This document shows, piece by piece, positions 10,861 through 19,080 of a DNA stretch of 64,000 nt (position 1 is the stretch's first letter; every line of letters begins with the position of its first letter). Both the position numbers and the translations under genes were made by a program. This DNA comes from Pseudomonas gingeri (GTDB taxonomy: Bacteria; Pseudomonadota; Gammaproteobacteria; Pseudomonadales; Pseudomonadaceae), in NCBI RefSeq assembly GCF_013385425.1, contig NZ_JACAQA010000003.1, positions 496,001-560,000 on the forward strand. Reading direction: 5' to 3'. The notes beneath the pieces were generated by a model. That model worked only from the letters and a program-made list of their open reading frames with translations, had not been told where the DNA came from and searched no databases.

Positions 10861-11095
10861 CTTCGCCACAATCGGTAATACTCCCGGGCTTGTCGCTGTG
10901 AAGGCTGGGCACTAGCCTTTGAATGTCGCTGCTCATTCAGCGACCGGGCCTGGAAACCCGGCAAGAAATCAGGCGCTCGACGCCTCCATGGATTACGATT
11001 GCAGGCGTTTTTTTGTGCCCGCTTATCTGTGTCATGGCGGCTGTGCGCGGGAGACCTTCGGGTCTGCCGGGGTCCTGATTTCCCGGTTTCCAGCC
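10861..11095 (+). ncRNA. Structured element, copy 1 (orphan)
   Basis: A ~235-base noncoding stretch matches copy 2 at about 12817-13040, and the helices persist although their bases differ. Stems: AAGGCT/AGCCTT (10901-10906, 10914-10919); TCGCTG/CAGCGA (10926-10931, 10938-10943); CCGGG/CCCGG (10944-10948, 10957-10961); AGGCG/CGCCT (10971-10975, 10981-10985); AGACC/GGTCT (11052-11056, 11061-11065). A long-range option pairs CTGGAAACC (10950-10958) with GGTTTCCAG (11085-11093). A T7 run lies at 11008-11014. No DUF3077-like gene follows; it sits between two minus-strand genes. Strand is taken from copy 2, and RNA rather than DNA function is inferred. Confidence 0.5.
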
Positions 11096-11167
11096 TGCGT
11101 ACAGCTGCCACCCTTCGCCTGGAAACTGTCAGTACCGATGCAAAACTGACCCACCGAAACAACCAGC

Positions 11168-11695
11168 TTATTGCTCCTGTCTGACGAACCTAAGACACGC
11201 AAAACCCGTCTTGATGTGCAGCTGTTGAACGGGTTCGACGCTCTCCTGAGTCCCGATTTTTTTAATAACGCCAAGCCCGCAGTAATGTTGGTCTCTGGTA
11301 AAGATGGGCAGGATGCCCGTTCTGGACTCACTCCAGAAGCCCGACTTCAGGATGTAAGTAGCCCCTTCCTGAGGCGTGAAGGAAAAAGGGATTTGACACA
11401 CGCTATCCGCGAGTACTCGTCGGTACGTCAATACCAGCTCTTTGCCCACGGCTACCGGCGCTTCGATAAGACCGTCAGTGTTTGGCAATGGCGTGAAGCC
11501 CGCGTAACAACCTGATTCGTTGAAGGTCATGGCGTCCAGGGTGGTGCCATGTTCGTATGCAAGACGAACCGTCGCTGAAGGTTCGTCCGGCCGGGGGAAG
11601 AGATACTGCTGACCCTGAAGTAGTGAAGTACAACCGCTGAGCGCAACCGTTCCAGCTAACAGCGCATACCAGAAAAACTTGTTGTTCCCGTCCAT
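11168..11695 (-). CDS. Hypothetical lipoprotein
   Basis: This 175-residue protein is predicted to be a lipoprotein. MDGNNKFFWYALLAGTVALSGC is a lipoprotein signal with lipobox LSGC. The mature part is short and beta-rich (DAMTFNESGCYAGF, SFTPQEGATYIL), and I do not recognise it. The frame is open far upstream, but the ATG at 11695 has GGGAGCGGTTG before it and begins the signal peptide. It follows the 268-residue hypothetical gene by 56 bases on the same strand, so the two may form an operon. Confidence 0.7.
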   Translation of the reverse strand: MDGNNKFFWYALLAGTVALSGCTSLLQGQQYLFPRPDEPSATVRLAYEHGTTLDAMTFNESGCYAGFTPLPNTDGLIEAPVAVGKELVLTYRRVLADSVCQIPFSFTPQEGATYILKSGFWSESRTGILPIFTRDQHYCGLGVIKKIGTQESVEPVQQLHIKTGFACLRFVRQEQ

Positions 11696-11717
11696 CAACC
11701 GCTCCCTGATACCTTTT

Positions 11718-11731
11718 GAGCAAGCTTGCTC
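11718..11731. repeat. Perfect palindrome GAGCAAGCTTGCTC, REP-like
   Basis: This 14-base perfect palindrome lies in the 56-base gap between two same-strand genes. I recall the core (GAGCAAGCTTGCTC) as common in repetitive extragenic palindromes of fluorescent pseudomonads. The usual flanking bases are only partly present, so this is at most a partial REP. Confidence 0.45.
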
Positions 11732-11751
11732 GTGATAGACGCCAACCAAGC

Positions 11752-12558
11752 TCAACGCACAGGATAGGCGATCATCTCCAACGGCTTGGACTTGGATTCG
11801 ACCGTATAACGACCTATCTTCACCGAGGCCGAATCGCCGTTGGCCGGCCAGATGGCGTCGGCCTCTGTCTGAACCTCTTGCGTCGACAATTCTGGCGCGA
11901 GGGTTCGCAGCAACGCATAGGTCATGCAACGCATCAGCCGGAGCTGCTCCTTGGGTTGCATGAATTGCTCCCCTGTCGTCCATTGTGCTTTTACAACCCT
12001 TCCGTCTTCGTCCTTGGAAAACTTCATATCAACAGCGCCGTCCTGCACAAACATGGATTGCTGTGTCTGAGTGCCCGGTATCGAGTACGTCCCGGCACGA
12101 ACATCCCTGCACGTGAAGTCCTCTTTAGCCCGCTCCTCCATGGCCTGTGACATTTCCCGAGGCGTTAATTCGAAAGACGGTGGCCTGACAAAGCCGCAGG
12201 TATAGACAAATTCGACCTTGTCGGGCCAACCCAGCCCGGCGTCATGCACCCGGTGAACGACCGCATCAAGGTAGCGCGGAGGATTGATGGAGCTGCACGT
12301 CAGTATAGCCCGGACCGTCTTGGTGACGGTGCCGTTGTGGTCGCTACTGACGGCGTAAGAGAAACTCGCCTGTTCGCCGAAGTCCTTTTTCAAGCCTTGG
12401 AGAATCTGCTTGTTTTGCTCGTCTGTGAGCATCGATGCCTGTGCCAGACGGAGACCATGGTAGAACCTTCCAAGCCTCGACCAATCGACATTGAGCCAGA
12501 GAGCAGCAGCTGACAACAGCAAAAGGATAATCAGTAAGGTACGCGTCCTGCGAGCCAT
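11752..12558 (-). CDS. Hypothetical membrane-anchored protein
   Basis: This 268-residue protein has one N-terminal hydrophobic anchor (RRTRTLLIILLLLSAAALWL) and a long extracytoplasmic domain. The domain holds four Cys that could form disulfides (LTCSS, VYTCGF, FTCRD, RCMTY). No family is recognised. The ATG at 12558 is preferred over an upstream start because it opens directly into the basic, hydrophobic anchor. It is followed at 56 bases by the lipoprotein gene on the same strand, and both may act in the envelope (inference). Confidence 0.6.
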   Translation of the reverse strand: MARRTRTLLIILLLLSAAALWLNVDWSRLGRFYHGLRLAQASMLTDEQNKQILQGLKKDFGEQASFSYAVSSDHNGTVTKTVRAILTCSSINPPRYLDAVVHRVHDAGLGWPDKVEFVYTCGFVRPPSFELTPREMSQAMEERAKEDFTCRDVRAGTYSIPGTQTQQSMFVQDGAVDMKFSKDEDGRVVKAQWTTGEQFMQPKEQLRLMRCMTYALLRTLAPELSTQEVQTEADAIWPANGDSASVKIGRYTVESKSKPLEMIAYPVR

Positions 12559-12689
12559 AACGGGAAACTCTGAAGAGGTGCGGCCTGTATTGGCCAATGG
12601 GTTTCGGGTGTGAACGGGGGTCCATAGCAGGGGCCGCATGCTACTAATTAGCCACTGCCGTATTCAAGGCAATTCTACTGATTGTGCTG

Positions 12690-12803
12690 GTCTGGATAGT
12701 GCAGCAATCCGACCTATGTTGAACGCCTATGCACCGCCTTGAGTCCGTCATGACCATCTTTCGTATAGTCGCCCACCTGCCCCCCCCGCCGAGGTCGCAG
12801 TCC
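12690..12803 (+). pseudogene. Decayed copy of the upstream region and first codons of the VOC gene at 9829
   Basis: This stretch aligns with about 9771-9890. Shared blocks include TGGATAG, GCAATCCGAC, GAACGC and TCATGACC, then codons for xRIVAxL. The ATG at 12750 opens MTIFRIVAHL where the intact gene reads MTVRRIVANL. A run of nine C then breaks the frame, and the match ends at GCCGAGGTCGCAG. The structured element copy 2 starts about 15 bases later, so VOC codons after ~20 and everything up to the element were lost. Confidence 0.75.
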
Positions 12804-12816
12804 TCCAAAATGCCTC

Positions 12817-13040
12817 CTCGCCACAATCGGTAATAATCCTGACCTTGTCGCGGTAGAGACCGAACACTAGTCTTCGGTAGTCGCCGCCTATTCGGCGACC
12901 GGGCTTGGAAACCCGAAGACATAGCGCACAGGCGCTACCGGTCACGATTACAGGCATTTTTCGTCTGCAACTTTGCTGATGGCATCAGTGCGTGGGAGGA
13001 CTCAGGTCCTGCCAGATCTATGCCTCCAGCTTCCAACCTG
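12817..13040 (+). ncRNA. Structured element, copy 2 (upstream of leader ORF and DUF3077-like gene)
   Basis: The counterpart of 10861-11095 shares CGCCACAATCGGTAATA and TTGGAAACCCG blocks. Its stems keep pairing after base changes: AGAC/GTCT (12857-12860, 12870-12873), TCGCCG/CGGCGA (12881-12886, 12893-12898), CGGG/CCCG (12900-12903, 12912-12915), AGCGC/GCGCT (12923-12927, 12932-12936), AGGAC/GTCCT (12997-13001, 13006-13010). Long-range TTGGAA/TTCCAA pairs 12905-12910 with 13031-13036. It ends about 55 bases before the ATG of a 22-codon ORF. A 5' leader or separate small RNA controlling the DUF3077-like gene fits best (inference). Confidence 0.55.
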
Positions 13041-13095
13041 CGTATATCGCCTGGGACGAATGCGGTGGCTCTCACTTAGACGTAGGAGCTTTACC

Positions 13096-13164
13096 ATGCA
13101 CGTACTCGCTTCGCTCGACCTTCACACCTCGGACACCTTCGTAATTGCTGGAGGTGTCCAATGA
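13096..13164 (+). CDS. 22-residue leader ORF coupled to the DUF3077-like gene
   Basis: ATG at 13096 opens MHVLASLDLHTSD, continuing to TFVIAGGVQ, with the stop at 13162-13164. The Shine-Dalgarno TAGGAG lies 7 bases upstream. The stop overlaps the start of the next gene as ATGA, the classic arrangement for translational coupling. The peptide has no known family. It may be a leader peptide or a small protein in its own right; a spurious ORF is possible but unlikely given the ribosome binding site and exact overlap. Confidence 0.55.
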   Translation: MHVLASLDLHTSDTFVIAGGVQ

Positions 13165-13439
13165 ACGACTATCCCCCGATCAAGACCCTCGGCGTCATTA
13201 CCTTTGCCTCCTGCGGCGCGGGGGATCAGGAGTTGTTCCGAGTCAACCCCGATATTCCGATAAAGGACGCCATGGAATACGCCTCCAATCTGTTTTACTG
13301 CGCAAAGCACTTGGCCTTGGACGCTGCCATGGAGAAGGATGGGGAACGTTATGCTTGGGCGTCCCACTACCTTTGTGAAATGGGCAAAGCGGTGGTCGAT
13401 GATCTGAACCAGAGAATACTGTCTCGCCAAAAGGCTTAG
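13161..13439 (+). CDS. DUF3077-like small protein
   Basis: This 92-residue protein is of unknown function. The central segment ELFRVNPDIPIKDAMEYASNLF followed by CAKHLALDAAME matches what I recall of the DUF3077 family, small Pseudomonas proteins often found in several copies per genome. The ATG at 13161 follows GGAGGTGTCC and overlaps the stop of the 22-residue ORF. It is predicted cytoplasmic and helical. Upstream lies structured element copy 2; downstream a bidirectional terminator at 13536-13576. Confidence 0.75.
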   Translation: MNDYPPIKTLGVITFASCGAGDQELFRVNPDIPIKDAMEYASNLFYCAKHLALDAAMEKDGERYAWASHYLCEMGKAVVDDLNQRILSRQKA

Positions 13440-18913: not shown

Positions 18914-19080
18914 CCCAGGGCTGGGTCGCGACGAGCCAGCAGGCCTCCATCGAGTCGCGTGGCACAGGGGATTTGCATCTCGCCCATCAGGTTCTTATCA
19001 TCGCGCTGGGTGCGCTGCTGCATACGGCACAGCGCAGGTTAAAGCATAAACGTTGGTCGGGCCGCCAACGGAGAATTGCT

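Follow-up and report, generated by a model that had tools for sequence, protein, structure and literature searches.

A tandem pair of half-broken units resembling the phage P1 immI operon in the chromosome of Pseudomonas gingeri

Introduction

A stretch of 64,000 nucleotides from the genome of Pseudomonas gingeri (RefSeq assembly GCF_013385425.1, 7.13 Mb in 71 contigs; contig NZ_JACAQA010000003.1, forward-strand positions 496,001 to 560,000; hereafter the window) contains two similar intergenic elements, one in front of a DUF3077 gene and one without such a gene, which raises the question of what these elements are and how one of them came to stand alone. The initial annotation described them as two diverged copies of a structured non-coding RNA under selection for pairing that precedes DUF3077 once and is orphaned once, and matched them to no named RNA family. 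The first part of this description was borne out: the copies (unit 1, or copy 1, 10861-11115; unit 2, or copy 2, 12817-13060) align over their whole length, covariation in 101 C4 sequences supports the structure, and relatives of the strain show that unit 1 lost a leader open reading frame (ORF) and a DUF3077 gene here. The last part was wrong, since the element corresponds to the known Rfam pair of C4 antisense RNA (RF01695) and c4-a1b1 (RF03163), and these matches rule out a novel RNA family. An Rfam search and further homologues had been proposed as the check, with covariation as support and a known family as the contrary outcome; both were obtained. We consider it highly probable, going by architecture and pairing, that each copy is a C4-type antisense RNA module, i.e., the RNA part of the immI operon of phage P1, now located in the chromosome, and the best reading of the units as a group is that they are domesticated and multiplied phage immunity modules, mostly self-specific.

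Results and Discussion

Identity and history of the two units

The Rfam search gave four matches in the window, three of which belong to the two copies (two c4-a1b1 and one C4 antisense RNA). Unit 1 is composed of c4-a1b1 and a C4 RNA, and unit 2 of c4-a1b1 and a decayed C4. The gathering threshold of RF03163 (46.7 bits) was passed by both units and that of RF01695 (45 bits) by unit 1 (scores in Table 1), while unit 2 did not reach the latter and showed no RF01695 match up to an E-value of 0.01 in a permissive search; three orthologues of unit 2 score 73-75 bits for the same family. These tests class unit 1 as a C4 RNA and assign c4-a1b1 to both units, and the whole resembles, at the sequence level, the P1 immI operon minus the antirepressor. 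The P1 record has the order promoter, a1, b1, c4, a2, b2, icd, and ant1, in which the last 4 nt of icd overlap the start of ant1. Unit 1 of the window has no b2 and unit 2 no working C4; the leader ORF overlapping the regulated gene is found in unit 2, and this gene is DUF3077 in place of an antirepressor.

When compared to related strains, the two units appear as remnants of complete ones. In Pseudomonas sp. QS1027, the same site after the cytochrome b561 gene is occupied by unit 1 with its leader and DUF3077, followed by a lipoprotein-like gene and by unit 2, whose C4 is intact and whose leader has just begun where the fetched stretch ends. The unit 2 type with an intact C4 is kept in P. gingeri A8002, MWU13-2105, and P. 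batumici, and the unit 1 type in P. batumici and P. gingeri A6001. Other sequence has replaced the unit 1 leader and DUF3077 in the window, where positions 11127-11733 have no counterpart in the 3.3-kb QS1027 stretch. Judged from these alignments, unit 1 has lost its gene in the window and unit 2 its C4, both RNA elements being intact in tandem in QS1027, and unit 1 is orphaned because its leader ORF and DUF3077 were lost in the host genome. What remains is an intact C4 with no gene in unit 1 and, in unit 2, a gene that lacks a functional C4; derepression of the unit 2 DUF3077 is predicted as a result.

Conserved fold of the C4 RNA

Covariation was determined on 101 C4 sequences (44 from the host genome, 56 distinct ones from other Pseudomonas genomes, and that of P1) with an alignment that was not fitted to the structure, the structure itself being the fold of the window's own sequence. 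In the three-stem fold, 98.3% of pairs were standard and two-sided changes occurred in 18 of 27 pairs (201 such cells), a level matched by 0 of 500 shuffles; slid structures dropped to 34-48% paired. A smaller count, on 73 hand-picked sequences out of 100, had the same outcome. The C4 of unit 1 adopts the three-stem fold of its relatives, with loops b′ and a′, at a predicted minimum free energy (MFE) of -51.8, and that of unit 2 folds differently and reaches -29.3, three orthologues whose C4 is intact lying between -46.4 and -48.3.

Most of the stems proposed initially found their place in this scheme. The stem TCGCTG/CAGCGA (TCGCCG/CGGCGA in copy 2) is the first hairpin of the Rfam c4-a1b1 model, AGGCG/CGCCT (AGCGC/GCGCT) is a real hairpin adjoining b1, and AGACC/GGTCT (AGGAC/GTCCT) corresponds to P2 of C4, all five pairs of which show two-sided changes in the 101 sequences. 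Likewise, the long-range pair CTGGAAACC/GGTTTCCAG (TTGGAA/TTCCAA) corresponds to the antisense-target contact of the P1/P7 immI system in which a1 pairs with a′. To these are added the long P1 stem of C4 (preserved in copy 1, disrupted in copy 2), the P3 stem, and a second antisense-target pair, b1-b′ (AAATCAGG/CCTGATTT; CATAG/CTATG).

Specificity of C4 RNAs for their own locus

The specificity of each C4 was scored as the sum of the duplex energies of loop b′ and strand a′ with its own site or with all other sites, in host sets of 37 units (a1b1 sites) and 45 units (sites after C4, including orphans and the broken unit 2), with 10,000 permutations per set, none of which was as low as the cognate mean. 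Permutations within gene classes used DUF6124-like (19), F2 (8), F3 (8), Bro-N (2), and other genes (8, including window unit 2), F2 and F3 being our own class labels. The mean for C4 and its own a1b1 was -25.3 compared to -16.4 when permuted (z -18.7; within classes, -11.7), and for the downstream site -23.7 compared to -16.8 (z -16.9; within classes, -11.4). As a replicate, 60 loci from 60 other genomes, which yielded 45 distinct loop pairs, gave z values of -14.5 (a1b1) and -18.7 (downstream). The cognate was the single best partner in 30/37 (a1b1) and 25/45 (downstream) host units. Among the 44 host C4s there are 42 distinct b′ loops and 44 distinct b′/a′ pairs. In 33 of the 45 host loci and 58 of the 60 others, the longest b′ match takes in a Shine-Dalgarno-like triplet that has a start codon no more than 22 nt away, for example b′ TTTCCTATTGG with CCAATAGGAG. 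Taken as a set, the units thus show the complementarity of C4 to its own a1b1 and a2b2, with b2 over the ribosome-binding site, that characterizes P1 immI, and the separation of cognate from non-cognate partners is, by these energies, good but not perfect.

A different role has been proposed for 21 C4-like small RNAs (sRNAs) of Acinetobacter baumannii, for which portions of PMC5320573 favor, from the variable a′ loops, action in trans as the likelier of two possibilities. If Pseudomonas C4s likewise acted on other mRNAs, the nearby pairing would be a leftover, and some cross-pairing does exist: out of 1980 non-cognate pairs, 52 have an energy at or beyond the cognate median. Against this stand the cognate match to both neighboring sites in two sets of loci, the diversity of loop sequences, and the position of the b′ match over Shine-Dalgarno-like sites; we hold a mainly trans-acting role to be improbable. 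A rescue of unit 2 in trans by the C4 of unit 1 was unsupported as well, this C4 ranking 15/45 on the unit 2 target (-18.4); the decayed C4 of unit 2 ranks 37/45 on the same target (-14.7).

Leader region and promoter

In many units, a hairpin directly after b1 shares an arm with a terminator-like hairpin, the 3′ arm of the former serving as the 5′ arm of the latter. This holds for copy 1, where the 3′ arm of the AGGCG/CGCCT stem is shared in this way; no such triple was found in copy 2. Hairpin/terminator scores of at least 40 were obtained for 21/37 host units (shuffle mean 1.2, maximum 3) and 35/60 loci of other genomes (shuffle mean 3.5, maximum 7), with P1 scoring 41. The arrangement suggests that C4 bound to b1 would free the terminator, and because a1b1 often adjoins a hairpin that excludes the terminator, we infer that C4 pairing at such loci probably also governs read-through.

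The same leader admits another interpretation, in which the short terminated a1b1 RNA is the active regulator and turns the long mRNA on, as IsrK does, and C4 is a folded mRNA segment instead of a free repressor. Such action was shown for IsrK by Hershko-Shalev et al. 2016 (sections of PMC4825925), and a1b1 plus terminator of both copies resembles isrK (RF01394), the only additional match of the permissive Rfam search. Yet the scores of 37.9 and 35.8 bits lie under the Rfam gathering threshold of 50 bits, descriptions of P1 C4 present it as a processed RNA, and in Acinetobacter reads cover C4 more highly than the region upstream (portions of PMC5320573). Both modes could also coexist, with the a1b1 RNA serving as a C4 sponge. 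On balance, we regard an IsrK-type switch in place of a C4 repressor as rather unlikely.

Regarding the promoter, the pattern TTGnnn-N16-18-TAnnnn was present in 37/44 host a1b1 loci, with the -10 element at the 5′ end of the Rfam model, and in copy 1 the distance from the predicted -10 to the conserved CCGG is 31 nt, the same as for the annotated P1 -10. Given the pattern and the P1-like spacing, the Rfam c4-a1b1 model appears to begin with a promoter element rather than with RNA. This bears on the remaining stem of the initial annotation, AAGGCT/AGCCTT (AGAC/GTCT in copy 2). Its letters are present in both copies, but it straddles the predicted -10 (TAGCCT, 10913-10918; TAGTCT, 12868-12873), so most of it would precede the transcript start, and as an RNA stem it is unsupported genome-wide. 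A Watson-Crick dyad of at least 5 bp over the -10 occurs in 2/44 host loci, namely both window copies (shuffle mean 1.6). With GU pairs allowed, 7 of the 10 sequences of window type, which comprise the two copies and relatives, have a dyad of at least 6 bp, in shifting register and counted without a chance control. Its position makes it most likely that this stem is a promoter-region feature rather than an RNA stem, possibly a DNA dyad or operator peculiar to the window-type subgroup.

Upstream boxes were also noted. The DUF6124-class host units examined have a common box resembling TTTCCTAGAAA, which precedes the -10 by about 45 nt. A different one, TTTCCCAC..GGGAGAATA, is found in several F2 units, and CACAATCGGTAATA is common to both window copies; each gene class may have its own transcription factor at its upstream box.

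Distribution and downstream genes

The host genome contains 44 C4 matches, 43 of them above the cut-off, and 44 a1b1 matches. Thirty-six C4s are paired with an a1b1 located 42-68 nt upstream on the same strand, leaving eight C4s and eight a1b1s unpaired. C4 was found in 92/99 sampled Pseudomonas genomes, 8 of the 99 with at least 39 scored candidates, and in 42/299 genomes and 28/153 genera of a phylum-wide sample. By our reading, 40 of the 44 host C4s stand before a small gene belonging to a recurring class (frameshifted in one case), two before a truncated one, and two, window unit 1 and C4:85318, before none. The latter is the first of two C4 RNAs that are less than 400 nt apart (85318-85703).

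The proteins of the DUF classes comprise 86-147 aa, and those with a name match DUF6124, DUF3077, Bro-N, or QslA. According to a Pfam search of the host genome, 20/23 DUF6124 genes have an Rfam C4 just upstream, one is found with the broken unit 2, and two have none. The DUF6124 units of the host mostly lack the leader ORF, which is present in window unit 2 with a 4-nt overlap. Among DUF3077 loci of named genomes, 13/15 have an Rfam C4 upstream (six of the window type and seven more distant, with another ORF between); of the remaining two, one has a1b1 only and that of P. agarici showed no match over the threshold. Bro-N was identified at three of the host loci that were translated, one of them behind a1b1 without C4, and QslA at one. 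QslA, a LasR-specific antiactivator according to its Pfam description, occurs in 18/99 Pseudomonas genomes; in the 12 loci examined, the seven strongest have a same-strand C4 upstream and the five weaker do not. At some QslA loci, the leader, a second short ORF, and QslA stand in succession.

For the DUF3077 protein, a helical hairpin was predicted (mean pLDDT 74). Its fold search against the PDB gave no match at E 0.001 or better, and its alignment profile matched one PDB sequence, over 21 positions, a chain named DHP1. NCBIfam offered no name for seven representatives. In the parts of PMC9630843 concerned, furfural-tolerant P. putida strains have a one-base insertion in the DUF3077 pseudogene PP_RS01475.

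These proteins also bear on whether the units are type I toxin-antitoxin loci, in which an antisense RNA restrains a toxic small protein. The logic would be the same, in that a small protein is kept from being translated by an antisense RNA in cis, and Icd of P1 is recorded as an inhibitor of cell division. No known toxin is found among the named matches, however, nor does the size of the proteins fit, and the window genome retains its DUF3077 gene with a broken C4, so that expression of this gene is apparently tolerated. A toxin-antitoxin function is therefore considered very unlikely.

C4 sites occur on viral contigs as well. Of 72 C4 sites on viral contigs with enough downstream sequence, 37 have a short leader and a second ORF, which overlap by 4 nt in 36. 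IMG/VR yielded 112 stretches with the exact C4 5′ pattern, and 81 sites were read among 80 of them; our own profiles found DUF3077 (25), DUF6124 (21), F3 (8), or Bro-N (4) within 900 nt downstream of 58/81 sites, some of whose contigs may carry host flanks. At the four viral Bro-N sites, the leader resembles leaders that precede other genes in bacterial genomes. Four viral contigs show C4, a 52-aa leader, a 68-aa ORF (4-nt overlap), and then a Bro-N match, an arrangement that is likely the phage form of the module. As for a phage or plasmid origin of the DUF proteins themselves, single representatives (one DUF6124 and one DUF3077 protein) had no tblastn match, including in 50,697 phage records. 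DUF3077 is matched by PHROG 36471 (unknown function), and a profile scan of viral contigs returned one DUF3077 relative; a Bro-N scan for close relatives returned none.

The damage in the window might indicate that such units are decaying prophage relics without a present role. Both window units are damaged, a deletion in MWU13-2100 fuses the unit 1 a1b1 with the DUF3077 end, the RNA is phage-like, two host C4s have no gene, and truncation or a frameshift affects a few of the genes. Decay without function would nevertheless not account for two-sided compensatory changes in C4, for cognate specificity that persists within gene classes, or for the presence of C4 in nearly all sampled genomes of the genus, and the DUF6124 and DUF3077 representatives found no counterpart in the phage records. 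We judge that the units are very unlikely to be mere relics.

Proposed mechanism

In the preferred reading, that of domesticated immunity modules, a single promoter would produce a transcript with the leader target a1b1, then the C4 RNA, and then the second target a2b2, which lies over the ribosome-binding site belonging either to a short leader ORF or directly to the gene; the leader ORF, where present, would be coupled through the 4-nt overlap to the small protein gene. By analogy with P1 and Acinetobacter, C4 would be released from the transcript by cutting, which in an operon of the P1 immI type is RNase P processing, and fold into its three stems, and its loop regions b′ and a′ would bind a2b2 and thereby keep the gene off by blocking translation, in addition to the probable effect on read-through described above. 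A broader proposal, which we put forward tentatively and with some doubt, is that in Pseudomonas the phage immunity RNA has become a genome-wide bank of at least 40 mostly orthogonal, self-specific antisense switches, each repressing one small helical protein that captures a transcription factor (like Ant of P1 and QslA), many of them read through a C4-controlled attenuator plus blocked translation.

Several observations weigh against the preferred reading. In the replicate, the cognate was the best partner in only 17/45 (a1b1) and 21/45 (downstream) cases; because the cognate is often not the best partner, above all in the replicate, cross-talk is likely, as the 52 strong non-cognate pairs also indicate. 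The downstream site is discriminated by b′ and hardly by a′ (a′ alone best in 2/45 in both sets), and the duplex energies take no account of target structure. Additionally, 25/44 host a1b1 matches score under the Rfam cut-off, which 19 exceed. Only 2/6 host DUF3077 genes have an Rfam C4 upstream, the others being one with the broken unit 2, one with a1b1 only, and two with neither. Finally, the hairpin/terminator arrangement is wholly missing in 13/37 host units (including unit 2) and 15/60 others, and attenuation is therefore not general.

Comparison with known systems

The Pseudomonas units share with P1/P7 immI (c4-icd-ant) the promoter, a1, b1, c4, a2, b2, the short leader ORF, and the 4-nt overlap, and the leader hairpin/terminator arrangement occurs in P1 too. 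In contrast to P1/P7, they are chromosomal, present in dozens per genome, and have locus-specific codes, and the antirepressor is mostly replaced by DUF3077, DUF6124, and other small proteins. The Group 1 C4-like sRNAs of A. baumannii, 21 in number in the relevant portions of PMC5320573, are likewise chromosomal with many copies, a conserved core, and variable loops; their targets were left open there, whereas the Pseudomonas C4s match their own a1b1 and downstream sites, and the gene families can be named. The Salmonella IsrK-orf45-anrP locus, as presented in sections of PMC4825925, has a terminated leader RNA, a read-through mRNA, and a leader ORF coupled to a second gene, and thus established this leader-RNA logic in a prophage, but it is a single prophage locus, and the window copies fall below the isrK gathering score. 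The CI RNA of phage P4 with seqA and seqC, in the same sections, is also a processed antisense RNA between upstream and downstream complementary sites; unlike the scheme proposed here, P4 works by premature termination, and the likeness is one of description only.

C4 and c4-a1b1 were already published, as passages of PMC2864571 attest. A link of C4 to DUF3077, DUF6124, or QslA in Pseudomonas was not found in the open-access literature searched, subscription papers and the Weinberg 2010 supplement being outside its scope. As far as the searched literature goes, the new elements are the scale in Pseudomonas, the C4 code with both sites in dozens of loci, the gene families, and the half-broken pair of the window.

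To our knowledge, few bacteria have dozens of copies of one cis-acting antisense system. With 44 copies and 44 distinct loop pairs in one genome, the avoidance of antisense cross-talk becomes directly measurable. DUF3077 and DUF6124, families without known function, would thereby acquire a regulator, and their control region a phage ancestry; QslA-family genes lie behind the same switch at 7/12 loci examined. The window itself provides two natural half-broken units, with a relative that keeps both RNA elements whole.

Features of the window

The coordinates of the two units are compiled in Table 1. The final codons of the unit 2 leader ORF (GGVQ) contain the Shine-Dalgarno sequence of the next gene.

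Table 1. Coordinates (window numbering) of the predicted and matched features of units 1 and 2.
Feature	Position	Strand	Details
Predicted promoter, unit 1 (TTGTCG, 17 nt, TAGCCT)	10890-10918	+	Pattern common to host a1b1 loci
c4-a1b1 (RF03163), unit 1	10912-10964	+	49.6 bits, E 1.6e-09
Target a1, unit 1, CTGGAAACC, partner a′	10950-10958	+	Sequence; register of c4-a1b1 and P1 a1
Target b1, unit 1, AAATCAGG, partner b′	10966-10973	+	Eight consecutive bases match own C4
Mutually exclusive hairpin AGGCG/CGCCT and terminator-like GACGCCT...AGGCGTTTTTTT, unit 1	10971-11014	+	Putative attenuation
C4 antisense RNA (RF01695), unit 1, fold intact	11030-11115	+	76.1 bits, E 4.2e-13; MFE -51.8
C4 pairing strands, unit 1	b′ 11074-11081, a′ 11085-11093	+
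a2 remnant, unit 1, CCTGGAAAC	11118-11126	+	Leader ORF and DUF3077 of relatives missing after it
Predicted promoter, unit 2 (TTGTCG, 17 nt, TAGTCT)	12845-12873	+	Same promoter pattern
c4-a1b1 (RF03163), unit 2	12867-12919	+	55.4 bits, E 2.9e-11
Target sites, unit 2	a1 12905-12913, b1 12918-12924	+
Decayed C4, unit 2, 3′ arm of P1 stem lost	12977-13060	+	No Rfam C4 match; MFE -29.3
b2 site, unit 2, GACGTAGGAG, over leader-ORF Shine-Dalgarno	13079-13088	+	Sequence; orthologue alignment
Leader ORF, unit 2, 22 aa, MHVLASLDLHTSDTFVIAGGVQ	13096-13164	+	4-nt overlap with DUF3077 start
DUF3077 gene (PF11275)	13161-13439	+	E 1.6e-33

The fourth Rfam match of the window, apart from the two units, is an nhaA-I riboswitch (RF03057) at 19008-19070 with 54.4 bits.

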